From a virus: 22,956 bases of DNA. Below the pieces are notes generated by a model that saw only the letters and a list, made by a program, of their open reading frames with translations, did no database searches and had not been told where the DNA came from. Both the position numbers and the translations under genes were made by a program. Each line of letters opens with the position of its first letter. Within the stretch, counting starts at the first letter, position 1. The DNA lies in IMG/VR virus record IMGVR_UViG_3300009151_000415, positions 1 through 22,956 of that record. One strand, 5' to 3'. Below are positions 1 through 22,000 of this stretch, piece by piece.

Positions 1-226
1 GCAGGCTGTAGTCCATAGTAGTGATATTAAGGCTATTACGATTGTGATGCCAATCACCCATAAAAATTCCAACATCGCAACCCTCCTCCTTGGCTTTTGC
101 AATATACCAGTCTACAAAATCTTCGCAGTCTTGGTTATGCACACTACTGTTGGATTTCAATCCAAAGTGTATGTCTGTAAAACAGGCAACTTTCTTAAAC
201 AGTTGGTGTGTCATTGGTTGATTCAT
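1..226 (-). CDS. gp47: Recombination endonuclease subunit gp47 (SbcD/Mre11-like), N-terminal part
   Basis: Partial gene: 75 codons are visible and the rest lies off the left edge. The product should be the metallophosphoesterase subunit of the gp46/gp47 nuclease, which processes DNA ends for recombination-dependent replication. Motif I is FTDIHFG at residues 16-22 (D18, H20); motif II is MGDWHHNR at residues 56-63 (G57, D58). The usual SbcD motif II is GDxxD, but here His61 stands in place of the last Asp; I recall the same GDWHH form in marine T4-like phages. The ATG at 224-226 is chosen because GAGGA (235-239, minus strand) sits 8 bases upstream; the next in-frame ATG (212-214) has no ribosome binding site. 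The first 32 bases overlap the end of gp55 in another frame, so translation is probably coupled. The order 55-47 is that of T4. Identification is from motifs and context; the catalytic His and C-terminal motifs are not visible. Confidence 0.88.
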   Translation of the reverse strand, partial: MNQPMTHQLFKKVACFTDIHFGLKSNSSVHNQDCEDFVDWYIAKAKEEGCDVGIFMGDWHHNRNSLNITTMDYSL

Positions 227-1052
227 TAGTTGTGTCCTCGTTATGACGTTTCAGTGCGGCCGCATGCTCGCCAGCTCCGGTGCGTGAGTAAGATGGATTC
301 ATACCATTCATTTCTAAGATATCATCTCTGATATTTTGATTGCGTTTTTCAATATTAATAACACGCACAAAACTATTAGTAACTGCGGCAGTAAAATAGG
401 CAAAAGGATTATCGCTCTTAGATTCATCAAATTGAAGTCCCACTTGTGTTAATTGTAGTATGGCTTGTCCCCGCATTTCATCGTTGTAGGTATAACCACG
501 AACGTTGCCTCGGGTAGCATATCTTTCACATAACTTAATCATCATGCGGGCCAATGTGGGTGTAATTTGTCCAGCATCCTTGTCAAAGTGACCTTTATCC
601 AAGGTGCCCTTCCAATGACTTTTGCCCACACAAATCAATTCATCTTCGTCATTAAATTTCCAATGTTGAAATGGCGGAAAGTTAACTTTGTCTCTATGAT
701 CTGCCAAACTCTTTGGATTTTTCTTACGTGTATTGTTAAGTGGAATATGGTCAAATGTCATGACTCTAAACACCAAATCCAGCTTCTGTATCTTTTTATA
801 GTCCACTTCGCAGTCAGCTTGCTTGACTTTTTCACCAGCACGTTTGCGGGTTTGATATTCTAAATCGCCTATTCTTTTGGCCTGATTACGCTTGGCTTCT
901 GCTACTGTGCGTATGTTTACCTTGTCTATACTAGGTATAATCAAGTCATATTGATGATACTTTGGGTCAGTAAAACTACAATAACTGCTTTTGGATCTAT
1001 GTATTTCCAAAAGCATATCTTTGTTGTTTAAGTAATTGATTTTTGCTGTCAT
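195..1052 (-). CDS. gp55: Late-transcription sigma factor gp55
   Basis: This 285-residue protein is a T4 gp55-type sigma factor, which redirects host RNA polymerase to TATAAATA-like late promoters. The diagnostic part is residues 162-255, a sigma region 2-like block: ITPTLARMMIKLCERYATRG, then GYTYNDEMRGQAILQL, then FDESKSDNPFAYFTAAVTNS and INIEKRNQNIRDDILEMNG. T4 gp55 is about 185 residues; the excess is an N-terminal extension of about 160 residues (starting INYLNNKDMLLEIHRSKSSY) with a Lys/Arg-rich stretch at residues 53-80. The C-terminus (NEDTTNESTNDTPTV) is polar and shows no hydrophobic clamp-binding peptide like the one known at the T4 gp55 tail. The ATG at 1050-1052 is preferred over an upstream in-frame ATG at 1125-1127: GAGGA (1060-1064, minus strand) lies 7 bases before it, and the extra 25 residues would run through the promoter. 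It ends inside gp47. The family call is firm; the role of the extension is unknown. Confidence 0.9.
   Translation of the reverse strand: MTAKINYLNNKDMLLEIHRSKSSYCSFTDPKYHQYDLIIPSIDKVNIRTVAEAKRNQAKRIGDLEYQTRKRAGEKVKQADCEVDYKKIQKLDLVFRVMTFDHIPLNNTRKKNPKSLADHRDKVNFPPFQHWKFNDEDELICVGKSHWKGTLDKGHFDKDAGQITPTLARMMIKLCERYATRGNVRGYTYNDEMRGQAILQLTQVGLQFDESKSDNPFAYFTAAVTNSFVRVINIEKRNQNIRDDILEMNGMNPSYSRTGAGEHAAALKRHNEDTTNESTNDTPTV
235..239 (-). promoter_or_regulatory. Ribosome binding site of gp47, inside gp55
   Basis: GAGGA on the minus strand, 8 bases before the ATG at 226 and lying within the last codons of gp55. Ribosomes finishing gp55 would pass directly over it, which suggests coupled translation. 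Confidence 0.75.
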
Positions 1053-1059
1053 TAAAGAG

Positions 1060-1064
1060 TCCTC
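1060..1064 (-). promoter_or_regulatory. Ribosome binding site of gp55
   Basis: GAGGA on the minus strand, 7 bases before the ATG at 1052. It decides the start of gp55 against the longer frame beginning at 1127. The surrounding heptamer CGAGGAC is repeated exactly before gp47 (234-240), so both genes carry the same initiation signal. Confidence 0.8.
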
Positions 1065-1073
1065 GTAAAGTAA

Positions 1074-1102
1074 ATTATAAACTACGCACAGATTAAAGTC
1101 AA
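1074..1102 (-). promoter_or_regulatory. Sigma70-type promoter for gp55-gp47
   Basis: On the minus strand, TTGACT (1102-1097) and TATAAT (1079-1074) are separated by exactly 17 bases. This matches the bacterial housekeeping consensus in 11 of 12 positions. Transcription would start near 1067, about 15 bases before the gp55 start codon. Host RNA polymerase could therefore make the late sigma factor before any phage sigma exists. The -35 box abuts the divergent late-promoter octamer. Confidence 0.75.
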
Positions 1103-1109
1103 ATAAATA
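1102..1109 (+). promoter_or_regulatory. T4-type late promoter of the baseplate operon
   Basis: AATAAATA matches the late -10 box TATAAATA in 7 of 8 positions and fits the looser NATAAATA form reported for T4-like marine phages. Transcription would start about six bases downstream, near 1115, just before AGGAG (1117-1121) and the ATG at 1133. Polymerase bound here would cover the whole divergent gp55 promoter. The assignment is by motif and position only. Confidence 0.65.
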
Positions 1110-1132
1110 GAGTATCAGGAGAACCAAATATC

Positions 1133-2093: not shown

Positions 2094-2396
2094 ATGCCAA
2101 CACAATATAGTGATCGCAGTCCGTGGTCCATAACTCCAATAACAAAAAATTATCTCGATGTGTTACGTATACGAACTGTGAGTGCTGAGTCAGATGATTT
2201 CTTTTACACCATACAGCCCCAATACAATCTTCGTCCTGATTTATTAGCGTTTGACTTGTACGGAGACCCGGCACTGTGGTGGGTTTTTATTCAACGAAAT
2301 TTAGATATTCTACAAGACCCTATCTTTGATTTTACAGCAGGAACAAAAATTTATATTCCAAAAAACAGCAGTCTGTCAGAAATTTTAGGAATCTAA
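2094..2396 (+). CDS. gp53: Baseplate wedge protein gp53
   Basis: 100 residues. The block YNLRPDLLAFDLYGDPALWW followed by VFIQRNLDILQDPIFDFTAG and TKIYIP is the hallmark of the gp53 family, a wedge subunit that binds gp6/gp25 and helps wedges join around the hub; the final part resembles a LysM-type fold. T4 gp53 is about 196 residues, so only the family core is present, as in other compact marine T4-like phages. It starts one base after the preceding stop, with AGGA (2080-2083) ten bases upstream, and is followed by the hub gene after one base. No alternative identity fits the motif set. Confidence 0.88.
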   Translation: MPTQYSDRSPWSITPITKNYLDVLRIRTVSAESDDFFYTIQPQYNLRPDLLAFDLYGDPALWWVFIQRNLDILQDPIFDFTAGTKIYIPKNSSLSEILGI

Positions 2397-2397
2397 T

Positions 2398-4599
2398 ATG
2401 GCAAATAATGATGTCAAAGAAACTTCAACGCCAGCCACTTCTTCACAATCAAGTACGCCCGGTGTTGCCGCTACCGCAGTAAGTATCGGAGCCAGTGCCG
2501 CAAGCCTGATGGGGTTTGGTGTTGATTCAGGATTCAAACCAGGAATGCCAAATGTACTGCACAAATATGCAAGTTACAATACAATTTTTACCTTGGCAAT
2601 ATTATCCCCGGATCAATTGGCCAATCCTGAAAAAACCTATTTGAGGGGAGCACCGTTGCCTATTATTTTAAGATCTGCCGGAGGCAACCCAACCAACAGA
2701 ATCAAAACTGAATTTGGAAAATTTGATTTTTATATTACTGAGTTGGAAATTAAAAGCGTTTATGGATTTACACAGGGGCTGGGAAACACCAATGCTACGC
2801 TACTTGACTTTACAGTGTCGGAACCGTACAGCATGGGAATGTTTCCCATAGCATTAAATACCGCCGCGCAAAGTATTGAACCAAATCCGTACAATAGCTT
2901 TGCACAAGCTACCTTTCTGTTGAAAATTGAATTTATGGGTGAAGATCAAAACGGCAATATGGTCAAAGTTAAAAATACCACCAAATTCTTACCGATACAA
3001 TTTAGAAGAGTTGATATGAGTGTCAGTGAAGGCGGAGCAACCTATAAGTGTCAAGCACATGCATCAGCGGATGCTCCAAATTTAAGATCAAATTCGAGAC
3101 TTTTAACAAACGCCACAATCAGAGGAAGTAGTGTACAGGAACTTCTACAACGCGGCCCGCAGAGTCTACAGGCGGTGATCAATGGCAGACTAAGAGAAAC
3201 TGCCAAGGCAGCAGGAATCAAAACAGCAGATGAAATAGTAATTGTATTTCCTGATTCTGCAGACAAGCTACAGGCGTTTGAAAAAGGCGAAGACGAAAAA
3301 GCTACCGATGCAAAAGCCAGTGGACTCAAAGCCAGCGAAAAAAGAACAGCAGTTGTTAACGACAGCACAATTTTAAGTGCATTAAATTTATCTCGTGGCA
3401 CTCTAGTAAACGGAGAATCACTAATAGAAACTCAGGTCAATGCTATCGGCAAAGCTAGCATGGGATACGATGCAAACAAAAAAGCCAATACAGCGGCACA
3501 AAAAATGCAAAACATAGTAGACAAGGGTGGAAAAGTAGAGCAGGGTTTTTACGAGAGGAATTTTAAAATTTCAGAATTCGTATTGGCACAAGATTCGTCA
3601 ATACAGTATGCCATAAATCAAGTTATAAGAAATAGCAACTATGCTGAAGACTCACTTAAAGCTCCATCGGATGACAAAGGTATGAAACAATGGTGGAGGA
3701 TCGAAACTGCAATGTATGAACTTGATGCTCCTGTGGACGAAAAAACAGGCATGAAACCAAAAGTATTTGTTTGGAAGGTATTACCTTACTTGTTTCACGA
3801 AAGTAATTTTCCGATCCCCGGCTCATCCAGTCCAACATTTACTGCATTGTTGAATCAGTGCATCAAGATCTACAATTATATTTTTACCGGAAAAAATCAA
3901 GATATTTTAAAATTCAACTTGGACTTTGATACTAAATTCATGGTTGCTATCACCAATGATCAGGGAAATGTTCAAACGGAAGCTGCCAAAAAAGGCGGTG
4001 CACCAGCAAAGCAAGGCGGACAACCGGGGGGCCCTACTAGGAAAGGAGTTCTAGGATATCAATCCACTTATACAGCCACGCACAATAGTTTTGACCGACG
4101 AGGTGCAGGCGGAGATGAAACCCCAGCAACAAAAGCCGCAGGCATGATGCATGATGCATTAACTTATGGTTATGATTTGCAAAATATTGAAATAGACATA
4201 GTAGGAGATCCCTATTATCTAACCAGCAATGGCATGGGAACTTACAATGAACCACCGGATAAAAAGTTAATGAATATTCTAAAAGACGGCAGTATCAATT
4301 TTCAAAACGGGGAAGTTGACATTGCAATTATTTTTAAAACTCCGCTGGATATAAATTCAAGCACTGGATTATACACCATGTCAGGCAAAGCAGTGGGGCA
4401 ATTTAGCGGATTGTACAAGTTGCAAACGGTGACCCATAGATTCAAAGACGGGGAATTCACACAAACAATCAAAGGAGTACGCCGACCAATGACCAAAGAA
4501 GATGTTAAAAAGACTGTGGCCGTTTTCAAACCCGGGCCGCCGATACTTGATGCCACAGCAACTCAAGTGCAGGGTATTGATGGGACCGCACAAGCATAA
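2398..4599 (+). CDS. Large baseplate hub protein (probable gp27 counterpart)
   Basis: 733 residues. Residues 1-40 are Ala/Ser/Thr-rich and the conserved-looking body starts near KYASYNTIFTLAILSPDQL. Features of tailed-phage hub proteins lie toward the C-terminus: IDIVGDPYYLTSNGMG (the family 'GDP' loop), then SGLYKLQTVTHRFKDGEFTQ and TIKGVRRP, the strand pair with terminal Arg found at the end of many hub domains. Two low-complexity linkers interrupt it: an Ala/Lys/Glu stretch at about residues 295-317 and a basic Gly/Pro/Lys stretch at about 530-548 (AAKKGGAPAKQGGQPGGPTR). In T4 the hub partner of gp5 is gp27 (391 residues); here the gene is directly upstream of the spike gene and overlaps it by one base (TAATG), consistent with a hub-spike pair. 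It is nearly twice the T4 length, so other functions may be fused. No peptidase or lysozyme motif was recognised. The hub role is inference. Confidence 0.6.
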   Translation: MANNDVKETSTPATSSQSSTPGVAATAVSIGASAASLMGFGVDSGFKPGMPNVLHKYASYNTIFTLAILSPDQLANPEKTYLRGAPLPIILRSAGGNPTNRIKTEFGKFDFYITELEIKSVYGFTQGLGNTNATLLDFTVSEPYSMGMFPIALNTAAQSIEPNPYNSFAQATFLLKIEFMGEDQNGNMVKVKNTTKFLPIQFRRVDMSVSEGGATYKCQAHASADAPNLRSNSRLLTNATIRGSSVQELLQRGPQSLQAVINGRLRETAKAAGIKTADEIVIVFPDSADKLQAFEKGEDEKATDAKASGLKASEKRTAVVNDSTILSALNLSRGTLVNGESLIETQVNAIGKASMGYDANKKANTAAQKMQNIVDKGGKVEQGFYERNFKISEFVLAQDSSIQYAINQVIRNSNYAEDSLKAPSDDKGMKQWWRIETAMYELDAPVDEKTGMKPKVFVWKVLPYLFHESNFPIPGSSSPTFTALLNQCIKIYNYIFTGKNQDILKFNLDFDTKFMVAITNDQGNVQTEAAKKGGAPAKQGGQPGGPTRKGVLGYQSTYTATHNSFDRRGAGGDETPATKAAGMMHDALTYGYDLQNIEIDIVGDPYYLTSNGMGTYNEPPDKKLMNILKDGSINFQNGEVDIAIIFKTPLDINSSTGLYTMSGKAVGQFSGLYKLQTVTHRFKDGEFTQTIKGVRRPMTKEDVKKTVAVFKPGPPILDATATQVQGIDGTAQA

Positions 4600-6056
4600 T
4601 GAGCTCATACGATAATTTTAGTAATCAACGCCCAACTATCAATGGGCCCGCGGAATATATTAAAAATCCCGGCCCTTTCTTAGCAAGAGTGGTTAATAAT
4701 TTTGACCCCGACAAAGAAGGAGCCATACGTGTGCAGATTATACACGAAGGATCCACCGGCGAAAAAACTTCCGGAGAATCGATCCCAGCCCGTTATCTAA
4801 GTCATTATTGGGGAAGCACGGCCCAGCAATTTAACGGGCCGGCAGATACATTTCAAGACACGCAAAAATCATGGGGCATGTGGATACCAACTCCTGAAGT
4901 AGGATCGATAGTAGTAGTAATTTATATAGAAGGTAATCCTGGAAATGCTTATTGGTTGGGCGGAGTAATTCACTCTCGAATTGACAGTCATAAAAACTTC
5001 GGAGTTCCTGACAGCGCGGCCACTTCTTACAATAAGGATGACCCAAGCAAAAGATTACCTGTAGCAGAATTTAATTCGAATACTACTGAACGGGGCACTT
5101 ATGAAAATACACTGCTGAAACCAACAAATCCAATAGGCGATATTTTCAAAAAACAGGGTCTTTTACAGGACGATGTTAGAGGAATTAGTTCCAGCAGTGC
5201 TAGACGAGAAAGCCCTAGCAGAATTCTTGGATTCAATACTCCCGGCCCAATAGATTATAAAAGTCCCAAGAAAGATATTGGCGGCCCAGGAGAAAGCTCT
5301 GTTACATTTGTACACAAATTGGGTGGTAGCAGTTTTGTCATGGACGACGGTGACGATCAATTTTTTAGAAAAACTCCAGCAGGTGACGGCCCACCGGTAT
5401 ATGCAAAAGGATTGCCCGGTGACAAAATAATACCGCACAACGAATTGGTTCGAATCCGTACTCGTACAGGACATCAAATACTATTACACAACAGTGAAGA
5501 CTTGATTTATATAGGAAATGCCAAAGGCACCACTTGGATTGAATTGACTAGCAACGGAAAAATAGATATTTTTGCTGAAGACAGTATCAGCATACACACT
5601 AAAAATGATCTGAATATCAAAGCAGACAACGATATCAATCTAGAAGCTGGTAAAAATATCAATATGAAGTCAAATGGCAAAACACACTTAGAGTCCACAC
5701 TTGATTTGGAAATATTGTCATTGGGCGCGGCAACCATATCAGCCACCAAAGCAGTTGGTTTAGCATCTTTAGATAATCTTCTTATAAATGCCAAGATGGT
5801 GCATATCAATAGCCCCGGGCAAGTGGTAATACCTCCGATACCATTGAAAATAAACATGATACCAGATGAAACAGGTGTGCCTTCTCCTTCTATACTGTTG
5901 AGAGTGCCATCGCATGAGCCATGGCCATTCCATGAAAATTTAAATCCTGCTGATTTTGTTCCAGCAAAAACCAATATCAAAACAGGAACAGCACCCACCC
6001 CACCCGGCGGTTGGAAAGCATATACAGCACCAACTGATCCATTTAAACGGAGTTAA
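4599..6056 (+). CDS. gp5: Baseplate central spike protein gp5 (OB-fold plus beta-helix, no lysozyme)
   Basis: 485 residues. The N-terminal OB-fold (about 26-125) reads PFLARVVNNFDPDKEGAIRV, then MWIPTPEVGSIVVVIYIEGN and AYWLGGVI, as in gp5/VgrG spike proteins. A linker (about 130-235) follows. The C-terminal part (about 283-410) starts VRIRTRTGHQILLHNSEDLI and goes on with eight-residue strand repeats (SISIHTKNDLNIKADNDINL, EAGKNINMKSNGK), expected to form a trimeric intertwined beta-helix that punctures the outer membrane. T4 gp5 carries a lysozyme domain between these parts; here the space is only about 150 residues and shows no T4-lysozyme-like catalytic arrangement. The tail HEPWPFHENLNP is followed by a Pro/Thr-rich end. 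The ATG overlaps the hub stop by one base and has only a weak upstream purine run, so translation probably depends on reinitiation. Confidence 0.85.
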   Translation: MSSYDNFSNQRPTINGPAEYIKNPGPFLARVVNNFDPDKEGAIRVQIIHEGSTGEKTSGESIPARYLSHYWGSTAQQFNGPADTFQDTQKSWGMWIPTPEVGSIVVVIYIEGNPGNAYWLGGVIHSRIDSHKNFGVPDSAATSYNKDDPSKRLPVAEFNSNTTERGTYENTLLKPTNPIGDIFKKQGLLQDDVRGISSSSARRESPSRILGFNTPGPIDYKSPKKDIGGPGESSVTFVHKLGGSSFVMDDGDDQFFRKTPAGDGPPVYAKGLPGDKIIPHNELVRIRTRTGHQILLHNSEDLIYIGNAKGTTWIELTSNGKIDIFAEDSISIHTKNDLNIKADNDINLEAGKNINMKSNGKTHLESTLDLEILSLGAATISATKAVGLASLDNLLINAKMVHINSPGQVVIPPIPLKINMIPDETGVPSPSILLRVPSHEPWPFHENLNPADFVPAKTNIKTGTAPTPPGGWKAYTAPTDPFKRS

Positions 6057-6058
6057 TT

Positions 6059-6496
6059 ATGGCATCAACACTATACGACAAAATCACATTACCGGCGGCG
6101 CCAGTTACAGCTATTCCGATACCGCAAACATACAAAGGGTTCAGTACAGTTAATCAAACATCTCAAGGGTATGCGTTATATGATTTAGAATTGATCAAAC
6201 AAGATTTATTAAATCAGTTTCACATTCGTCGCGGAGAGCGTTTGATGAATCCAACGTTTGGAACTGTTATATGGGACAATTTATTCGAACCAATGACTGA
6301 AGATCTTAAATCCACAATCGTAGACAATGTCAGCGAAATCATCAATTACGATCCGCGATTGGTTGCAAAAAATGTCATTGTTACCACATATGAAAGTGGA
6401 ATACAGATAGAATGTATACTGCAATACCTGCCCTACAACATTCAACAAAGCATGCAATTACGCTTTGATCAGAATAATGGACTGATGTCTACATAA
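6059..6496 (+). CDS. gp25: Baseplate wedge protein gp25
   Basis: 145 residues, close to T4 gp25 (132). RRGERLMNPTFGTVIWDNLF followed by EPMTE (residues 57-82) is the GPW/gp25 family signature, and the C-terminal VIVTTYESGIQIECILQYLP completes the domain. gp25 joins the wedge to the sheath and binds gp6 and gp53, both encoded nearby. GGAG (6049-6052) lies six bases before the ATG, and the gene starts two bases after gp5 ends. It is the last gene before the second late promoter. Some databases call the family lysozyme-like; no such activity is implied here. Confidence 0.92.
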   Translation: MASTLYDKITLPAAPVTAIPIPQTYKGFSTVNQTSQGYALYDLELIKQDLLNQFHIRRGERLMNPTFGTVIWDNLFEPMTEDLKSTIVDNVSEIINYDPRLVAKNVIVTTYESGIQIECILQYLPYNIQQSMQLRFDQNNGLMST

Positions 6497-6542
6497 TATA
6501 CGTACATATTAAAAATCAATAAATATTGATATAGGATAAAAC
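6497..6542 (+). promoter_or_regulatory. Intergenic late promoter and ribosome binding site of gp6
   Basis: The only gap inside the baseplate operon. AATAAATA (6518-6525) is identical to the octamer before the first baseplate gene and fits the T4-type late -10 box. It sits in the loop region of a small inverted repeat, TCAAT-AAAT-ATTGA (6516-6529). AGGA (6533-6536) lies six bases before the gp6 ATG. A late transcript starting near 6531 would carry gp6 and the giant gene with a leader of about a dozen bases. Confidence 0.6.
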
Positions 6543-9500: not shown

Positions 9501-10028
9501 GATCAATTAAATAATTCGTTCGCACCAAAATTAAACTTAATTAAAACTATCAGCGACGAAATTGTGTATCATCCTGTAAAATATAAAGTGCTATTTGGCG
9601 CCAAAGCTGAAGCATATTTACAAGCACAATTCAAAGTCATTATTAACAAGACTGTGGTACTGTCCGATAACGATATAAAGACTCAAATATTATCTGCAAT
9701 TAATACTTTCTTTGCGTTAGGCAATTGGGAATTTGGAGATACTTTCTACTTTACAGAAATGGCAAGTTATGTTACATCTCAAGTAAGTCCTGCAATCGTT
9801 AATTTTGTTATTGTTCCAGCTTCTAATTCCTTGTCGTTTGGCGGACTTTTTGAAATCAAAGCCGGGCCTGATGAAATCTTTATTAGTGGTGCAACAATTG
9901 ATAACATTGACATAGTAACCACAATGAACTCTACAACTATTAATAGTTTAGGAAATATTACACTAAAATCAAATGCTATAGCAGTACAAGCATTAACAAG
10001 CTCAGCTTACGGATCGTCTAATGTCTGA
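6543..10028 (+). CDS. gp6: Baseplate wedge protein gp6, enlarged
   Basis: 1,161 residues. The N-terminus (about 10-110) is gp6-like: DFENIRRSMIDYLRQNFPED, YLALIDLIAYLGQSIAFRVD and ENFLELAERRDSVLRLARML. A baseplate-J-type core follows (about 370-470), with NAPATYYTQNRMITAEDYNI and SRYLDLIDPTGKYSKTNLFA. The C-terminal domain (about 985-1150) has VKYKVLFGAKAEAYLQAQFK, GNWEFGDTFYFTEMASYV and FGGLFEIKAGPDEIFISGA. gp6 dimers form the inner ring that holds the six wedges together. T4 gp6 is 660 residues; the extra length is mainly between about 470 and 985, a beta-rich, Ser/Thr/Asn-rich region I do not recognise. The gene has its own late-type promoter and a good ribosome binding site, and its last 8 bases overlap the start of the giant gene. 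Confidence 0.85.
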   Translation: MSATDRQNRLLVAKDWTKVYQSFRNADFQSYDFENIRRSMIDYLRQNFPEDFNDYIESSEYLALIDLIAYLGQSIAFRVDLNARENFLELAERRDSVLRLARMLSYNAKRNQAAKGVLKFTSVQTTQNVLDSNGRNLSNQIISWNDSSNNNWYDQFISVLNAAFPASQQFGNPSDSATIYDTPTEQYRFNNSTTAVPVYGFTKTVNGSTMEFEVTSTTFSGQDYIYEDTPKIGNPMACIYKNDGQGSASNNTGFFFYFTQGKLNQGSFTISQPTTSESIDIDSININDTDVWLYKVDQRGIESELWTQVPNLSGNNIIYNSLNKSIKNIYKIITRAGDRISLSFSDGTFGTITIGTFNVYYRISNGLAYVINPQDIRGVSLTIPYTSALGQAEQITVTLALQSSVDNSASTESNAKVKANAPATYYTQNRMITAEDYNISPLSVSQEIAKIKAVNRSASGISRYLDLIDPTGKYSKTNLFADDGILYQEVYTSSTTFTYTSRTDIQGIIVNKIFDILANTDLRNFYYSKFTNINTTLLDITWYNVNTDLAFSSGYLGSTIDKKPYLLSTYSNTALKYASVGSLIKFKAPLDADGNEQVFDRSNNNALVKKTIVPKSNTSDYIWAEIVSLLGDGTASGTGITLTGEGAVSLNDTIPTGAIAIRVVPAWKTVIGSATITTMTDLIANNTPFGLRYDINTQTWQLIFQSNLDSSSPFSLSKQGDTTNLQLDASWLLLFVTDTITYTVSSRKLRYVFESAAQLRFYFDGNERVYDNVSGKVLSDSINILSVNTQPSLAAPFTFDQKFKITNQFIGLDGYIDTKKIVVTFNDKDNTGVVQDPDSFNNVVIPMASASITANEYIVLEKYTIEAGQEDYRYISNNDSKVIILPTQPTNFSQYKNAQYFYFIDVDTVAVYNSAISELIPSLDYKVFLGRDNLKFQYTHNASDTHRIDPGISNIMDVFILTDSYDLLFRQWLNNVIADRPLPPSSDQLNNSFAPKLNLIKTISDEIVYHPVKYKVLFGAKAEAYLQAQFKVIINKTVVLSDNDIKTQILSAINTFFALGNWEFGDTFYFTEMASYVTSQVSPAIVNFVIVPASNSLSFGGLFEIKAGPDEIFISGATIDNIDIVTTMNSTTINSLGNITLKSNAIAVQALTSSAYGSSNV

Positions 10029-13000
10029 TAACAAAAATCCAACAGGTTCAAACAATTACTCTTTGGTAGATCTACTACCAAATTATTATCGTACCGATAC
10101 CAACAAAAAATTTATTCAAGCAACTATTGATCAGTTGTCGCAAAAAGGCACGGCTAAAAAACTTACCGGATATATTGGTCGCCAAAATGCAAAGTCGGCC
10201 AACGGTAATGATGTGTATATCAAAGCACCTACCAAAGATAGACAAAACTATCAATTGGAACCGTCTGTGGTTATCAATGATAAGACTGGTAGCACAACAT
10301 TTTTTAAAGATTATCAAGACTACATCAATCAGCTAAAAGTATTTGGAAGTGATGTTTCCAATCATGAAAACATAAACAGACAAGAATTTTACAGTTGGGA
10401 TCCGCATATCAATTGGGATAAATTTGTTAACTTCCAACAGTATTACTGGTTGCCTTATGGTCCTGATTTGGTCAAAATTGCTGGTCAACAGTTAAACATT
10501 TCTAGTACCTACACTGTAGTAATAGCTCAATCTGCTACGTTACAAAAAGAATATTTGTTTACTCCTAACGGATTAGATAGAAATCCTGCACTGACTTTGT
10601 ATAGAGGACAAACTTATTATTTTGAAATTGATAGTCCTGGAGAACCGTTCAGTATCAAAACTTCTCGTACTCCTGGGTCAACTGACAGATACACTGACGA
10701 AAATTATATAGATAAGTTTGCAGTTGAATCCGGAACAATCAAATTTACAGTACCAATTACTGGTCCTGATAATCTGTATTACCTAAGCGAACGTAATCCT
10801 GATCTAGGCGGTTTAATTAAATTTTTAGATATCACTGAAAATGCATACATCAATGTCACTGAAGAATTGTTGGGTAAAAAAACATATACTCTTTCTAATG
10901 GCACACCGTTAAGCAACGGGATGAAAGTGTCTTTCGTAGGCAAAGTCACACCTGCCCAATATGCTCAGGGCGAATTCTATGTAGAAGGAGTTGGGACAGC
11001 GATTAATTTAATACCGACTACTACATTTGAAATTATCAGTACATATACTCAAGACAAAGCGGTTAATTTTGATTCAACATTATTTGATCAATATCCTTTT
11101 GCGGCCGCAACTTCCTTTACCGGTACCCCGGACTATATCACTATCAACAGAGCAAGCAAGGATCATAATCCGTGGACTAGATACAATCGTTGGTTTCATA
11201 CCGACGTTATCAATGCCAGTGCCAAGTTTAATAATACACTTGCAGATTTCAATCAAGCCAGTCGGGCAGTGCGTCCGATTATTGAATTTGAACCAAATTT
11301 AAAGTTATTTAATTTTGGTTCAGTAGCAACCAACGATGTAGATTTGGTCGATAACTACACCACCGATGTGTTTAGTATAGTGGAAGGTTCTGCAGGATAC
11401 AGTGTTGACGGTATCAAATTAACACAAGGCATGAGAATTGCATTTATAGCTGACCCTGATATAACTGTAAAGAATAAAATTTACAAAGTCTTGTTTGTCA
11501 ACATTGAAAATTCAGGCATAGGAGTTCCGCAAATACGATTGGTATTAGATGAAACGCCCGTTGCTGGATCAAACATGCTGGTAAGACAGGGTGTCACTTA
11601 TCAAGGACAAAGTTTTTGGTTCAACGGCACAGACTGGAAATTCGGCCAACAAAAACTAGTTGTAAATCAAGCACCGTTATTTGATTTATTTGACGAAACA
11701 GGTTCAAGTTTTGCCAGTTACAGCGGCTCCACATTTGCAGGAACCAAATTATTCAGTTATAAAATTGGAAATACAACTGCCGATAAAGTTCTAGGATTTA
11801 GTCTAAGTTATCAAAATATTAGCAACATCGGAGATATACTATTTGCGTTCAATTTACTAACGGATTCGTTTGATTATAAAGACTCTGACATTTTAATTAG
11901 TAAGTCTTTTAACACTGGATTTTTATCCAAACTAACATTTACTAATAGTCAACAGTTTGTCAACGGTTGGCAAACTAGTTTAGTAACACGTTACCAGCCG
12001 GCAATCAGGATTTACAAAAATTCTGGATTAACAAATAATTTTCCATTAGATATCTACGATAACAAAACTGATTTATCAGATTTGGAAATTCGATTATATG
12101 TCAACGGACGCAGACTTAATATTGCAAACTGGACCATAACGGATTCTTCTACTTACAAAAAAATTAAATTATCTGCAGACATTGCAAGTACTGATGTATT
12201 GACAATTAAAGCATTTGCTAGACAGCCTATCAATAATAACGGATATTACGAATTACCAATTAATTTACAAAATAATCCTCTAAACAAAGATATGGGTAAT
12301 TTTACTCTAGGCGAAGTTACAGATCATTTAAATTCTATTATTGATAATATTCAATCGCGATTTGTAGAAATCAAGCCTGGCGAAAACAATTTAAGCGACT
12401 TGGGAAATATAACTCCTTACGGCACTAAATTTGTACAGCACAGCGGTCCAGCTAGTCTGGCGCTATATCATATCACCAGCGAACAAAATAATATTGTTAA
12501 GGCTTTAGAAAAATCTAGGGACGATTACGGCAAATTTAAACGTAGTTTTTTACTTGCCGCTAAAAATCTAGGAGTTGATACTGATGTTGTTAATCAAGTT
12601 AACTTGATATTAAAAACACTATCAGCGAATAAAACACAAAAATCTCCTTATTACTTTAGTGATATGGTTCCTTTTACAGGAAAGAAAACAACAGAATATA
12701 CTGTTGTGGACAGCAGAATTAGAACATATCCATTGTCTACCACATTTAGTAATAAAGTAATATCAAACAAAGCAGTTAGTGTGTACCTTGGCGGAATACA
12801 ACTACTGTACGATATTGATTATTCTTTTACAACAGATGGTTATGTACAACTTAATGATACCGTTCACTTGGTTAATAATGATACTGTTGTAATTTTTGAA
12901 TATGATAGTACTGACGGATGTTTTATTCCACCAACTCCTACTAAATTAGGGTTATGGCCAAAATTTTCACCTAAAATATATGTGGATAACAGTTACGTAG

Positions 13001-16000
13001 TTCCACGTAGTATCATCATGGGCCACGACGGTAGTCAGACATTGGCGTATGGCGACTACAGAGATAATATTATTTTAGAATTAGAAAAACGAATTTATAA
13101 TAATATTCAAATTGAATACGATCCTACAATTTTTGATATTTACGATATTCTTCCAGGTTATTTTAGAACAAGTAACTTTACATTGGATGAATTTAATAAA
13201 GCACTTGCTCCTGGATTTTATAAATGGGCAGGAATCACAGGACGAGATTTTTCTAAACAAATTGATTTTAATAAATCTAATTCATTCACTTATAATTACA
13301 AAGGCCATACTACACCAGACGGTAGAAATTTACCAGGATATTGGAGAGGAATTTATCGTTGGATGTATGATACCGATAAGCCCAACGTAGCTCCTTGGGA
13401 AATGTTGGGTTTCAGCGAAGAACCTCAATGGTGGCAGAACAAATACGGTCCTGCGCCGTACACAAGTAATAATACTATACTATGGCAGGATTTGGCTATA
13501 GGAGCAGTTAGTGAACCAGGCAAGGCAGTAATATATAGAAGTAAATTTGTTAGACCAAATTTATTAAAACATTTACCAGTTGATGATGCCGGCAACTTGG
13601 TTAGCCCGTCAGCCGCACGATTATCGACTGGAGTCTTTAATTCGGATATCCAGAGTCATTATGTGTTCGGAGATACTGCACCAGTCGAATCTGCATGGCG
13701 CCGAAGTAGTTATTTTCCATTCAGCACATTGATTGCTTCGATGATCCTACAACCGGCCCATACGTTTGCTACCTGTTTAGACAGATCGAGAACTGTAAGA
13801 AATCTATGTGGACAATTGGTATACAAAGATACCAATTTAAGAATTAGACCACAGGATGTTGTATTGCCTAGTATCTATTCTAGTAAAACTAGAGTGTATA
13901 CTTCCGGAATTGTTAATTATCTAGTAGAAGCATTAATTTCAAATAATTTTAATTATTATAATGACTATCAATACAATTTAACTAATCTAAATATCAATCT
14001 ATCTTACAGACTAAGTGGATTCTCAAGCAAAGAAAACTTTAATTTAATTTTAGATAGTAAAAATCCAGCGGCATCCGGCAACGTGTTTGTGCCTCCTGAA
14101 AACTATAAAATTGTATATAATAGTTCAAGTCCTATTAATAAAATATCCTACAGTGGAGTTATTATTTCTAAAGTGGATTCTGGATTTGAAATCAAGGGTT
14201 ACAGTTCTTCAGAATCATTTTTTAATTACTATCCTTATAGACAAGAAGCCGGCCCACAAGTGAATGTCGGCGGAATCAGTTCAAGTTTTGTAAAGTGGAC
14301 TGCTGGTAAAACGTTTGCGGTAGGACAGCTTGTTTTATATAGTGGAAAATATTATCGCACATTGTATACAACAACTGCCCAGGATTCTTTTGATTCTACA
14401 GCATTTGCCCCATTACAAATATTACCAATAACGGGCGGAGCAACAGCAGTATTTAGACAATCGTGGGATACAGAAACTGTGAATATACTGCCATACGGTA
14501 CAGTGTTGAACAGTATTCAAGCAGTGGTTGACTTTTTATTAGGATACGGCGAATATTTAAAAGGCCGTGGTTTTATATTTGAAGATTTTAATAACGAACT
14601 GTCCCAAGTAAGCAACTGGGAAACTTCAGCCAAAGAATTTATGTTCTGGACTACACAAAAATGGTCTACTGGAGAAAATAAATGGGAGCAATGGACTCCA
14701 AATATTGCAATTAACTATGGACAGATTGTAAAGTATCAAGACGAATACTATACTGCTATACAAAACATTCCAGCACAACCTGTATTTCTACAAGAGCTTT
14801 ATTTTAAATTGGATGGACTCAGTACTGTTGGAAGTGCAGTAATTAGTCTAAGCCCTAGTGCCAACAAGTTGACATTTATGTCTGAGCTATCAGTAGCAGA
14901 AGATATTAATAATCCATTTAACGAATATGAAATATTCCAAGTTGACGGCTCTAGTCTAACTCCGGCAGACATGAATTCAAATAGACAGGGTAATCTTGTT
15001 ACATTCACACCATCTAATAACGGTACAATTTATAATGCTAGTTTTTATCTAGTACAAAAAGAACAAATTTTAATTTTAGACAATTCAACAGTATTCAATG
15101 ATGTAATTTACAATCCAGAAAGCGGATACAGACAAGAACGTATTAGGGTATCGGCATTTATAAGCAGCCAGTGGCTGGGTGGGTTTGAAGTTCCTGGATT
15201 TATTTTCGATCGAGCTGATATAGCCCCTTGGAAATCTTGGACTGATTATGCGTTGGGCGACATTGTGTACTATCAAGGATATTATTACAGTGCCAATAAT
15301 TTCGTACCTGGTACCTCTGAATTTAATTCCAATGATTGGTCGCAAATTAAGAAACCGTCACCTGTGCTGTTGCCTAACTGGTCTTATAAAGCAGGACAGT
15401 TCGAAGATTTTTATAATCTAACAGAAGATAATTTTGATTCCGGCCAGCAAAAAATTGCTCAGCATCTAATAGGCTATCAAAAAAGACAATATTTAAATAA
15501 TATTATACAGGATGATATTAGTGAATTTCAATTTTATCAAGGAATGATACGAGAGAAAGGAACGCAAAATAGTCTTAACAAACTGTTTGATGTGCTGAGT
15601 GCCGATAATAAAGAAAGCATAACATTTTTTGAAGAATGGGCAATTCGTGTTGGACAGTATGGAGCAAGTGAAGCATTCGAAGCTGTGGAGTTTGTGGTAA
15701 CACAGCCAGATATAACCAAGAATTCTCAAGGATTCTATCTGACACTACAGCCAGAGCGTTCTACTAATTTTAATCTAAATATATCTGCTAATAGTGTATA
15801 CCTAAAACCGCAAGGATATGATGCTAAACCGTTTCCGACTAATAACAATCAAAAATCTTTCCTAAGATCTGCCGGATATGTACAAGCTAATTCTGATACG
15901 ATTCAGATTAAAACTTTAGCTGATCTATCAACACAAGATATTGCACAATTTAAAGATGGTGCATATATTTGGGTATCGTTTGCAAACACCAGTTGGAACA

Positions 16001-19000
16001 TATATAGATTCACATCTGTAAAATTAATGCCAACTAATGCAATTTATAACACAGACAAAACAATATCTATAACAACAACAAACTTTGTGGATCCTAGTAT
16101 AGTTGGATATTATATCGGAATCCAACAAGTATCTTTCGCAGGTTTTTATAAAGTAATTTCAGCAGAATTAACAACCATAGTACTGGATGCATCGTCATAC
16201 ACTCCAGCCGCAGAATGGCCCACAGCTGAAACAATAAAGAATAATTTGCAAATTTTTAATCTATATCCAGTAAGAGCTAATTCAATTGACAGTGCAAATG
16301 ATATTATTAAATCTTATACTAAATTAGGTGATAAAATTTGGGTCGATGATGACGGCACCAGCAAGTGGGCATCCTTGGAATTAACTTCAGTATTTTCTCA
16401 AGCTGAAATCAAAAAACCATATACATCTCAAGACACTGCACACGGGCGTGTAGTAACACTAAGTCAAGACGGACTGATTGCGGCAGTAGCCACTCAAACA
16501 GGTCAAGTAATAATTTATGAAAAGCAAGGCCCAACTTGGATTTTCAAACAAGCAATAACTCGCCCGTTCATGGCACAATATGACTTTGGGCAAGATCCAA
16601 ATCTTCCTGATACATTCGCTGAAACAATGGCAATGAGTGCCGACGGACAATTTTTAGCAGTAGGTAATCCTCGAGCCGGCAAACTGGCTACCAGGGTCTT
16701 GCCTAACGGAAATGTTATTTGTGATAAATCTGCATTAAACTCAGCTAGCACACAAACAGGCACAGTGAGCTTGTACCAGAAAGATGCTTACAATGAATTT
16801 TTGTTATTGTTTACAATTGCCAGCGGTGACGACATCACAGATCAACAATTTGGATCATCTCTTGAATTCGGAACAAATACATTATTCGTCGGATCCAAAG
16901 GCAATACCAATTACGGAACTCAAGCAACTGTTTTTGAATTAAGATACCTAGCAGGGATAGATAATAATGTATCAGTCGCCAACACAAATGCTGACGGCGA
17001 ATCAGCACTTGCCATAGCCACAGTTACATATGATGCTGGAAACGCATTTTCATCTAGCGGGCCCACAGATTTAGTATTTGACGGTGGTTCTTCTATCACA
17101 ATAAACAGTACCGCAGACAGATGGGTAATTGTACGTCCTGGCCTAAGTGTAAACAATGGCACCGGCATCGGATATGGGTTATCATTATCTGTAACGTCCG
17201 ATAATTCCATATTGGCAATCGGCGCACCGTTTGGTGGAAGCGTGTACATTTACAAATTAAATTCTAACAATGTTTACGATTTATCGCAGACACTCAACGG
17301 CAAAACACAAACAGTTTCTCAGTCGACTACAGTTGCCGGAGTTGAATCCTTCAACACACTGACTTTGAATGGCGGTTACGGATTTAGAACCGATAACACT
17401 AAATTTATAAATTCATCATTGGCAAATTTAAGTACCACTGGTGGCTCAGGTACTGGTCTAATCGTAGATGGAATATTAAATGCCAATGGAACAATCCAAA
17501 AAATCAGTGTTAGACAGCCAGGTAAAAATTACAAAGTCGGCGATAGTATCACTGTAATAAATCCTATTGGCAACGGATCTGCATTAAGTTTATCTTGGGC
17601 AAGTAGAACTTATACTTCACCTAGTGATGATGGAATTCCTTATAAACTTGGCGATACTGTAAATTATGGCGGCATCAACTATGTTGCTGTGGGCAACACA
17701 ACAGGAAATACTCCTAGTTTAGTGTCAGCATATTGGTCTCAGATATCATTTGCCAATGCATTAGTCGGCGCAGATATCAGTACAACAACTCTTATTGGTT
17801 CAGGCTCCGGACTAAAAGTCAAATTGGCAACTGCAACATCGAGCGGCGCAACAGCTGGAAGTACAGTGATCCCAGTCACCACCATCAACAATTTTGAGGT
17901 AGGACAATCTGTATTTTCATCAACTTCTGCAACAGCATTTGCTTCCGGAACATATATTACACAAATTAACAAAGCAATTTTTCAATCAACACTGTCGGAT
18001 AATGTGTTAACTGTTAATAAAATAACAGCAGGAAATAACAGTATTATTGCAGAAATTATTGGATCTATCAACGGTACTGTTCTTACAGTAGAATCTCTGG
18101 CCGGAGCACAATTAATTCCAGGCATGGCACTATCAGGTGCAGGAATTCCAGACAGCATCTATATCGTCAGTGGATCCAATAATAAATGGACTATTAATAT
18201 ATCTGCATCTGTGACTAGTGTACAAATTACAGCCACATTGTATGAAACAATCAAACCGGGAATGTGCTTAACAAACCCTGCACTTGATACACCTGCCACA
18301 TTCACAGGAACAATAACTACCAAAGGTACATCAACACTGACTGGTGCAGTGACAACATTGATTGGAGGAGTGGCATCGCTATATAATGCCACTATTTCAG
18401 GAACTAAATTAACTTTTGATGCAGTAACAGGCGGGGATCCTGTAGTTGCTGGCATGGTGTTGACTGGCTCGGGTGTTTCATCCGGAACAACATTGCTGTA
18501 CGGTACTGGAACTAATTGGACAGTCAGTATTAGTCAGACTATTGGATCGCCTGTTACAATAACTGCTACATTGACCACAGCAACAATTAATGGATTTTCT
18601 TTAACTTTTTCAAAGTTTACCGGAGTAGCTTTACAAATTGGAGCAGTATTAAGCGGTGGATCTGTTGCGGCAGGCACCACAGTTGTGGGCGGCACTGGAC
18701 TCAGCTGGATTGTCAGCGTTAATCAAATAGCAACATGCACAACAGCCACACTTCCATACGGAACCATAAGCGGAAATACATTGACTTTTGTGGCATCTTC
18801 TGGTGCACCTGTAGAAATTGGTATGGCTGTGGTAGGAAATACAACAGTGCCAGGAACATTTATTACCGGCGGCTCTGGAAACACATGGTCAGTTAATATT
18901 AATCAAACAACTACTTGTACTCAAACTACCTTACAAGCGTCCTTGATAAATGCAGAAATCAATGGTACGACCCTAACATTCACCGGCATATCTGGAGCAG

Positions 19001-22000
19001 ATTTAATTCCAGGAATGGTGTTATCGGGTGCCGGTGTAATATCCGGAACCTATGTTATCAGCGGCGCCGACACAGAGTGGCTTGTGAGTACAACACAAAC
19101 AGTGGTTCCAACGACCATAACAGGCACTCCGGTTTATCTAACAGCTAGCGGAACTATTAACGGAACTATCTTATTAGGACAACAAATAAGTGGTTCGGGT
19201 ATCGTATCAGGCACAACAATTGTTGCTTCGGGAACTGGCATCGGAGGCGCTGGAACTTATCTAGTAACGCCAAGCCAAACACTAAATTCAACTGCAATAT
19301 CAAGTCGTTACATTTACCAACGTCCAACAATTATTGCTGGCATCACTTTGACCGGTGCAATTATATCCGGTACAACGTTGACATTCTCTGGAATCACTGG
19401 AGGAAATCTACAAGTGGGAATGAAAGTAACTGGTAGCAACGTGGCCTCGGACACTGTCATTGTATCAGGAGCTTCTACCAGCTGGATAGTAAGTATAAGT
19501 CAGTCAGTTTCTAATACGACTTTGTTAGTTACTGGTACCGGTACTGGTGGAACAGGAACATACATAGTGGACCAAGTATTGCCAGTAGGTATCAATGTAA
19601 CAACTGGTGTCAGTTTAGTAATTAATACAGCATTGGCAAATTCATTAATAGGTGTAGCTGAAGTTACTAGTTTGAAAATTTCTAACTACGGTACAGGTTA
19701 TTCAATAAATGATCTAGTACAATTTAATATAAATGGATCAACCAATCCAATTAAAACACGTATATCAGAAATCAGTGCTAATGCCAAAGTTAGTGTTGCT
19801 TCAATAAGTGACGGTAGTATTACTAGAGATGCTTCTCAGTTTGGTGCAAGTGTAAAAATCAATGCCACCGGAGAATTTTTAGTAATTGGGTCTCCATTAT
19901 ATTCAAATGCAGTTGGCTTTGAAGGCGAGGCATTGGTCTACAGTAACAACGCTATTTCTACAAATACATACAGTCTGTATCAAGAAATTAAAAATCCACA
20001 TTCAGCACCAGGGGATTTGTTTGGTAAAACAGTTAAGTTCTCTAACGACAACAAGACATTGTTGGTCCATAGCCCAGGTGCTGATTCTTTTGTTTTAACT
20101 ACCCTTGATAATGATAATTTACAAACCACATTTGATGCTGGAGCATTGCAATTTAAAGAATTAACATTGAATTCTGGAAAAATTGATGTATATACCCGAT
20201 ATTTGACAAATTGGATTCTTGGAGAATCGTTGTCTAATGTTAGTAACAGTATTGATGGTTTTGGACAAAGTTTTGCGATTGCTAATGATGTGATATTAGT
20301 GGGCGCACCTCATGCTACCGATTTACTGAACGATAAATTACAAAATATATCTATAACAGAAACCAATTCTGGCAAAGTTTATACGTATGAGCGTCAGGCC
20401 GGCAAATATAACTGGGCCAATGTACATGGTCAGACCGAATTAGTCGATCTTACTAAAATTAAACAGGTATTTTTATACAATAAATCTAATAATAAACTTA
20501 TAAAATACTTAGATGTAATTGATCCAAATTTTGGAAAAATTGCAGGAATTGCCGAACAAGAAATTAGTTATAAGACATTTTATGATCCTGCAATATACAG
20601 CGTAGGAAATTCTACAGTTAATGTGGATACTGGAACTGCATGGACAACGCCACATGTTTCTAAACTTTGGTGGGATCTGCGTACTGCTAAATTTATAGAC
20701 AATCATGCTGAAGATGTGGTGTACCGTAACAGCACATTAAACATGCTGGCTACCGGCGCAAGTGTTGATATTTACGAATGGGTTGAAACTAAATTAACCC
20801 CAATCGATTGGAAATCTCAAGCTGATACTTCAACTGGATTAACCAAAGGCATCAGTGGTGTACCGCTATATACAGATTCTTATAGTGTTAAACAACACTT
20901 CAACACATTTACAAAAGCCTATGAAAATACATATTATTTCTGGGTTAAAAATAAAGTACTAGTTCCAGAAGTTACTAGTCGTACCACATCAGCATATTCG
21001 ATAGCTAAATTGATTAGTAATCCTCGAGGAGAAGATTATGCGTTTGCAAGCATAACTGGAAATAATTCTTTCAACTTGATCAATTGTCAAAATTTATTAA
21101 GCGGCACAGATGTTGTATTAGGCATCGAGTATTGGAAGATAGATAACACTACACAAAATACACATGCTCAGTGGAAGCTGGTTGATAATAACCCCAATAC
21201 CAATTTACCAGCAACTATCGAAAATAAATGGTTTGACAGTTTATGCGGTAAAGATCAAGCAGATAGACCAGTACCGGATCTAGGCTTGCCTACTAAATTA
21301 CGATTTGGTGTTGAAAGCAGACCTAGACAAAGTATGTTTGTTAATAGTTACGAGGCATTAAAAGAATTTATAGAACGTGCTAACAGAATACTTATTAACG
21401 AACAAATTGTCGAACAAAAAGATATAGCAATATTAGATAATTATGATGTTGCTCCTTATAAATTTACCGGAGAGTATGACACCACTGTTGATACTGATGC
21501 CGAACTACGAATAATTGCAGTGTCAACAGCAAAACCGGCTGTAATTGCACCGATCATTGTTAATGGCAGCATAACTGGAATTACAATTATTTCTTCGGGC
21601 TCAGGATATATTAATGTTCCTCCGATAGTTGTAGCAGGAACTGGCGTTGGCGCAAAATTAAAAGCAATAATTGATGTTGCAGGGCAAATTATTGGCGCAA
21701 CTATTTTAAATGGCGGCAAAGGTTACGTCGAGAGCACAACAACTCTATCAGTTAGAACTTTCTCAGCTTTGGTTAAATCAGACTCGGTAGCAAACGGAAA
21801 TTGGAGTATCTATGCATATATTACCAATGCAATTACTGGTGTTAAATCTTGGGTAAGAGTAAAAACACAATCCTATGATGTACGCAACTATTGGAATTAT
21901 ATAGACTGGTATGCAACTGGATTTAATCAGTATACAGTAATAGATCATGCAATTGATACATTTGCAGAAATAGGAACAATTAAGCCGGTGGTTGGTCAAA

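Follow-up and report, generated by a model that had tools for sequence, protein, structure and literature searches.

Interleaved sigma70 and late promoters and a candidate operator in the gp55/baseplate gap of T4-like jumbo phages

In T4-like phages, early-to-late switching is known from T4 itself, whose late promoters are a bare 8-bp box. The T4 late system of gp55, gp33 and gp45 (PMC2988020) resembles the locus described here in its gp55-type sigma factor and in its 8-bp late box. Late promoters of T4, however, are described as lacking an upstream element (PMC2988020) as well as a -35 element and a MotA box (PMC6024815), whereas a subset of the late promoters here does have an upstream element and the gp55 here has an insertion. 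The shared element is therefore a departure from T4. T4 middle promoters, with the MotA box at -30 (PMC2988021), offer a partial likeness: here too a phage element stands at about -30, roughly 12 bp before a downstream box, but the downstream box is a late box and the element is an inverted repeat.

In phage phi29, early and late promoters face opposite ways within one intergenic region, A2c/A2b-A3, where protein p4 switches the late promoter on and the early ones off and inverted-repeat operators overlap early promoter elements (PMC3100819). phi29 is an unrelated phage, its late promoter is used by host polymerase with p4 and no phage sigma factor is mentioned, its p4 sites are present in four copies with half-sites 15 bp apart, and p6 assists (PMC3100819). 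The present locus has opposed promoters and a conserved inverted repeat, with a gp55-type late box, a far tighter overlap and a presumed early gene that is the late sigma factor itself, and its regulator is only presumed. The predicted promoters of jumbo phages CBB and GAP32 (PMC5259590) share the ATAAATA late motif, a gp55 gene behind a phage-specific promoter and divergent baseplate genes; in CBB, unlike here, the gp55 promoter is of the TGAAACG type, and we found no repeat in the gap.

Architecture of the gap

The window, by which we mean the whole 22,956-nucleotide stretch of DNA analysed, contains a gp55-type sigma gene divergent from a baseplate operon, with the control elements confined to 36 bp between them (Table 1). 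A sequence-only reading had described two abutting promoters in this gap, and its coordinates were all exact when the sequence was read again: TTGACT at 1102-1097, a 17-nt spacer and TATAAT at 1079-1074, opposed to AATAAATA at 1102-1109, with base 1102 common to the -35 element and the late box. Its assignment of the flanking genes to a gp55-type sigma factor and a baseplate operon is borne out by PHROG profile matches. Its inventory of motifs was correct for the two promoters and overlooked a conserved third element in the 17-bp spacer.

Table 1. Positions of control elements and genes in the window
Feature	Position	Strand	Basis or remark
gp55-type late sigma factor gene, 285 aa, ATG 1052	195-1052	-	PHROG 12791 (E 7.5e-73); PHROG 234
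gp55 probable ribosome binding site CGAGGA	1060-1065	-	direct reading
Predicted gp55 transcript start	1067	-	position of the -10 element
gp55 promoter -10, TATAAT	1074-1079	-	consensus match
Imperfect inverted repeat, candidate operator, TATAAACTACGCACAGATTA	1076-1095 (20 bp, centre 1085.5)	.	symmetry and conservation
gp55 promoter -35, TTGACT	1097-1102	-	consensus match; 17-nt spacer to -10
Late box of baseplate operon, T4-type, AATAAATA	1102-1109	+	direct reading; enrichment in relatives
Predicted late transcript start	1115	+	T4 late promoters, box at -13 to -6
Baseplate operon ribosome binding site AGGAG	1117-1121	+	direct reading
First gene of baseplate operon, virion structural protein, 319 aa	1133-2092	+	PHROG 12050
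gp53-like wedge gene	2094-2396	+	first baseplate operon (to 6496)
Structural gene	2398-4599	+	first baseplate operon
Hub/lysozyme-like gene	4599-6056	+	first baseplate operon
gp25-like wedge gene	6059-6496	+	first baseplate operon
Candidate operator, second copy, CATAATATACGTACATATTA	6492-6511	.	distance to late box equals that in the gp55 gap
Late box of gp6-like gene, AATAAATA	6518-6525	+	upstream of the gp6-like ATG
gp6-like baseplate wedge gene, 1161 aa	6543-10028	+	PHROG 10646

Membership of the gp55 family follows from profile matches to both PHROG 12791 and PHROG 234. The best PDB fold match is T4 gp55 in an open complex (7d7c; E 0.08, probability 0.97), obtained with a weak AlphaFold model (mean pLDDT 66) that suffices only to support gp55 identity. 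The T4-type profile matches only residues 147-261 of the 285, and relative to T4 gp55 the protein carries a highly conserved insertion of about 120 aa. At the far end of the window, an open frame of more than 4300 aa (10021-22956) runs off the sequence and encodes a giant virion structural protein (PHROG 10938).

The gp55 promoter scores 11/12 against the sigma70 consensus, and its 17-nt spacer lies within the 16-18 expected between TTGACA and TATAAT. Only two matches this good occur in 20 kb on both strands, so that chance placement of one of them in the gap is unlikely. On the other strand, an 8-bp TATAAATA-like box lies shortly upstream of a gene, as at a T4-type late promoter, the baseplate ATG being 23 nt downstream of the box. 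In T4 the late box spans -13 to -6 of the start. The lack of any upstream or -35 element that marks T4 late promoters does not hold here, since a conserved element lies at about -30 of this late promoter and of at least two others. As a string, AATAAATA is not rare in the window (2 found, 4.4 expected), and its significance thus rests on placement and conservation; both copies are intergenic and upstream of an open reading frame.

The third element is the 20-bp repeat, which fills the spacer between -35 and -10 with its centre at about -18.5 of the gp55 promoter and about -29.5 relative to the baseplate late promoter. Taken together, sequence conservation shows a sigma70 promoter, an opposed late promoter and the repeat to be interleaved at fixed spacing; that the gap is a composite control point is a reading to which we give even odds.

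Conservation and assignment of the two promoters

A search with the gp55 protein gave 80 relatives of 77-96% identity on environmental viral contigs, with some redundancy among them and most of them fragmentary; 79 included upstream DNA. In 79/79 the block TATTTA(T/G)TTG...TAT(A/T)(A/C)T is found free of indels. The overlap described by the sequence-only reading is thus conserved when the gap is aligned across relatives, and within this clade the late box and the gp55 -35 element never separate. Mean pairwise identity within the block is 86%, as compared to 42% and 37% in the two 36-nt flanks (an ungapped comparison, in which indels depress the flank values) and 42% at fourfold sites of gp55. 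Fifteen of the 36 block columns are invariant, and none in the flanks. In 11 of the 12 larger relatives' records the junction TATTTAKTTGAC occurs exactly once, at positions fitting the gp55 loci; the twelfth carries TTGATT there instead. A scan with the whole pattern, made without a protein query, led back to the same place: among the 80 matches listed, 64 lie directly upstream of gp55 and three more are cut by contig ends but belong to the same genes (67/80 at gp55), while the other 13 lie elsewhere and have unrelated spacers. Two of those 13 (L430 and L444) are situated just upstream of an apparent tRNA gene. At the level of sequence, this conservation is the decisive evidence that the observation is real, and both promoters are confirmed as conserved sequence elements.

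The late promoter reading is further supported by the relatives at large. Of three larger relatives, two have ATAAATA as the top strand-specific 7-mer upstream of genes and the other has it in second place, one count behind, with sense against antisense counts of 55 vs 14, 16 vs 2 and 17 vs 5. Across 0.7 Mb of relatives, with gene calls from a simple ORF caller, 70 intergenic and 49 coding occurrences correspond to an approximately 33-fold enrichment. This enrichment upstream of genes makes the late promoter reading sound. A Pfam DNA_PPF search for a sliding clamp gave no match in the phages, and the controls were equally silent.

The sigma70 promoter has a much narrower distribution. An opposite-strand sigma70 match of at least 10/12 is found at 41/42 distinct gp55 blocks, at 1/70 sites upstream of the gp6-like gene and at 0/48 tail-tube sites. 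Similarly, each base of the -10 element is kept in 95-100% of distinct relatives at gp55, the hexamer not being kept at gp6 or tail-tube sites, and the G and C of TTGAC are present in 93-100% at gp55 as against 0-24% at the gp6 site. Since the sigma70 match is nearly exclusive to the gp55 blocks, the sigma70 promoter can be assigned to gp55, and the repeat together with the late box to a limited number of tail-gene promoters. Early timing of the gp55 promoter is presumed: gene 55 of T4 has a MotA-dependent middle promoter besides its early one (PMC6024815), and in CBB gp55 is preceded by a promoter of the TGAAACG type, a class described for that phage (PMC5259590).

A repeat shared with tail-gene late promoters

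The gp6-like gene also has the spacer motif GTGCGTAG (plus strand CTACGCAC) ahead of its late box. In the window this copy is the variant at 6492-6511, with the box at 6518, and in 80 relatives (70 distinct sequences) the gp6-like gene has ATWAA-N-TACGCACATAAT upstream of its box. The element also precedes the late box of the tail-tube gene (about 48 distinct sequences) and, in weaker form, that of PHROG 11259, whose function is unassigned. At the gp6 and tail-tube sites it is a late box, not a TATAAT, that the element precedes. We therefore rule out that the spacer is conserved merely for sigma70 spacing, as late promoters devoid of a sigma70 promoter carry it too.

When every possible symmetry centre was compared, the best of all lay, counted from the initial base of the box, at -16.5 nt for gp55, -16.5 nt for gp6 and -15.5 nt for the tail tube, with a symmetry pairing of 0.54-0.67 as compared to 0.31 in shuffles; for PHROG 11259 the corresponding centre was not the top one. 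The repeat is imperfect, its pairing comes largely from the A/T arms, and its half-sites show no covariation across the aligned sequences. An RNA hairpin or terminator was rejected: in the gp55 gap both predicted starts are downstream of the repeat, and covariation between the half-sites is lacking. A matrix was built from gp55 and gp6 sites alone, the tail-tube sites being held out; scanned against 0.68 Mb from five relatives, it gave 20 intergenic and 7 coding sites, a 62-fold enrichment per base; one of the 7 coding sites is a late promoter beneath a spurious open reading frame. The held-out tail-tube sites have the same repeat-box geometry as the training sites. We found no description of the element in the open-access literature, and a search for the MotA DNA-binding domain (Pfam MotCF) gave no match in the phages, with the controls equally silent.

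A second geometry was also found, in which the repeat is centred 12.5 nt past the box start, over the predicted start of transcription; it recurs in three genomes and suggests, from position, repression. Sites of this kind lie at 120629 and 121398 in G002, 103187 in G003, 138537 in G004 and 148677 in G001, and those of G003 and G004 precede a conserved 94-aa gene.

The mostly fixed spacing between repeat and box would also suit contact by the late polymerase itself. The repeat might then be a -35-like element that the late polymerase reads, either through the insertion in gp55 or through a co-activator in the place of T4 gp33. At several unrelated genes the centre precedes the box by 15.5-16.5 nt, which puts it near -30, where the MotA box sits in T4 middle promoters (PMC2988021), and both the length of gp55 and the restricted extent of its T4-type match are in keeping with such a role. 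Against this, most late boxes in the same genomes lack the element, the second geometry does not fit, and the inverted-repeat symmetry suggests a separate dimer; we consider this explanation unlikely. An upstream element general to all late promoters is rejected on the pooled composition of 77 late boxes, which shows nothing strong at that position. Based on these comparisons, we take the repeat to be a candidate operator common to gp55 and tail genes.

Distant jumbo phages and a proposed mechanism

The gene pair itself extends well beyond this clade. gp55 is divergent from baseplate genes in PA5oct, XaC1, 121Q, CBB, Vibrio phage 2.275 and SCTP-2, and in Atu_ph07 and Phosso a single nucleotidyltransferase-like gene lies between them (outgroup loci L218-L224 and L226). 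Every outgroup gp55 gap has a late box. From box start to -10 the distance is 33-35 bp in 121Q, CBB and XaC1, 44 in the Vibrio phage and 52 in PA5oct, as compared to 30 here, and the XaC1 and CBB gaps contain a TGAAACG-type promoter (in CBB, TGGAACG directly after the late box). The repeat was not found in the gp55 gaps of PA5oct, XaC1, 121Q, CBB or Vibrio phage 2.275, so that the gene arrangement does not depend on it. In Agrobacterium phage Atu_ph07, with a gp55 of 38% identity, the gap keeps the junction TATTTAGTTGACA but shows no clear -10; its repeat is 15.5 nt from the late box, with a score reached by 0.4% of shuffles, and Phosso has a weak repeat at the same distance. The presence of the pair in distant phages that lack the tight form indicates an old gene pair and a tight three-layer form that characterizes this group.

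These distances bear on whether the arrangement is simply a product of genome compaction, with two needed promoters in a short gap conserved because every base is used twice. Most relatives do have a coding density of about 95%, and jumbo phages in general show gp55 and baseplate genes in divergent synteny. However, distant phages have the elements as much as 52 bp apart, so that abutment is not forced. Nor does either consensus promoter call for the conserved spacer, whose element is also found at other sites. We regard a coincidence of this kind as very improbable.

The sequence-only reading had instead explained the locus by polymerase exclusion: the two overlapping promoters would not be occupied together, and accumulating gp55 would bring late polymerase to silence gp55. 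In such a model the spacer element would be without a role. The reading took well-separated elements in relatives as contrary evidence. There are none in the clade, where the overlap stays intact in all 79 relatives; the distant jumbo phages, which keep the divergent pair, do space the elements more widely, at 33-52 bp, yet this is still inside one polymerase footprint, and mutual exclusion stays plausible. In T4, clamp activation lengthens the upstream footprint of the late complex by 13 bp over that of the basal complex (PMC2988020), so that a late complex positioned for baseplate transcription would overlie the gp55 promoter; a T4-like extended footprint would take in the gp55 start and its -10 (about -36 to -41 of the late start). 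As the sole explanation, though, we doubt it. Any spacer sequence would serve exclusion equally, which leaves the conserved spacer unexplained, as well as its recurrence at gp6 and tail-tube late promoters without a sigma70 promoter. Polymerase exclusion is probably not the whole story, and the third conserved element suggests a dedicated regulator rather than exclusion alone.

The explanation we find best is a three-part control point with a regulator at the repeat, although we would lean neither way on whether it is correct. In this model, host sigma70 polymerase would transcribe gp55, the baseplate operon would be read the other way from a gp55-type late promoter, and the repeat would be bound by a regulator, a DNA-binding protein that the phage encodes and probably a dimer. 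In its logic this model resembles the action of phi29 p4 (PMC3100819). The region between -35 and -10 is a classic repressor position, and binding there should therefore shut off gp55 synthesis. At the tail operons the same regulator would tune late transcription, as activator or repressor, and late polymerase at the baseplate promoter, by also covering the gp55 promoter, would reinforce a one-way switch. The gp55-driven negative feedback proposed by the sequence-only reading is putative.

More broadly, and with a confidence that falls a little short of even, we propose that a widespread group of T4-like jumbo phages has an undescribed regulator whose operator is common to the late-sigma gene and tail-gene late promoters, such that one protein would both end late-sigma synthesis and time tail assembly. 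If the late-sigma gene does share an operator with some of the late promoters in this abundant environmental group, late expression would be subdivided and fed back in a manner unlike T4. The 36-bp site and the recurrence of its element at tail promoters point to one compact control point for the switch to virion building, and as the three elements can be mutated separately, the phage's limit on its own late sigma factor is directly testable.

A different arrangement was seen in the largest relative (G001, L100), which contains at least six near-identical copies of TTGCAT-17-TATACT, each followed by a ribosome binding site and ATG. Copies lie at 342475, 342887, 343674, 350387 and 351324, with a variant near 347961, and the spacer and -10 fall within a 27-bp near-perfect palindrome, AGCGCATAGTTTGTTATACTATGCGCT. 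From its sequence, this array looks like a set of early promoters under one operator.
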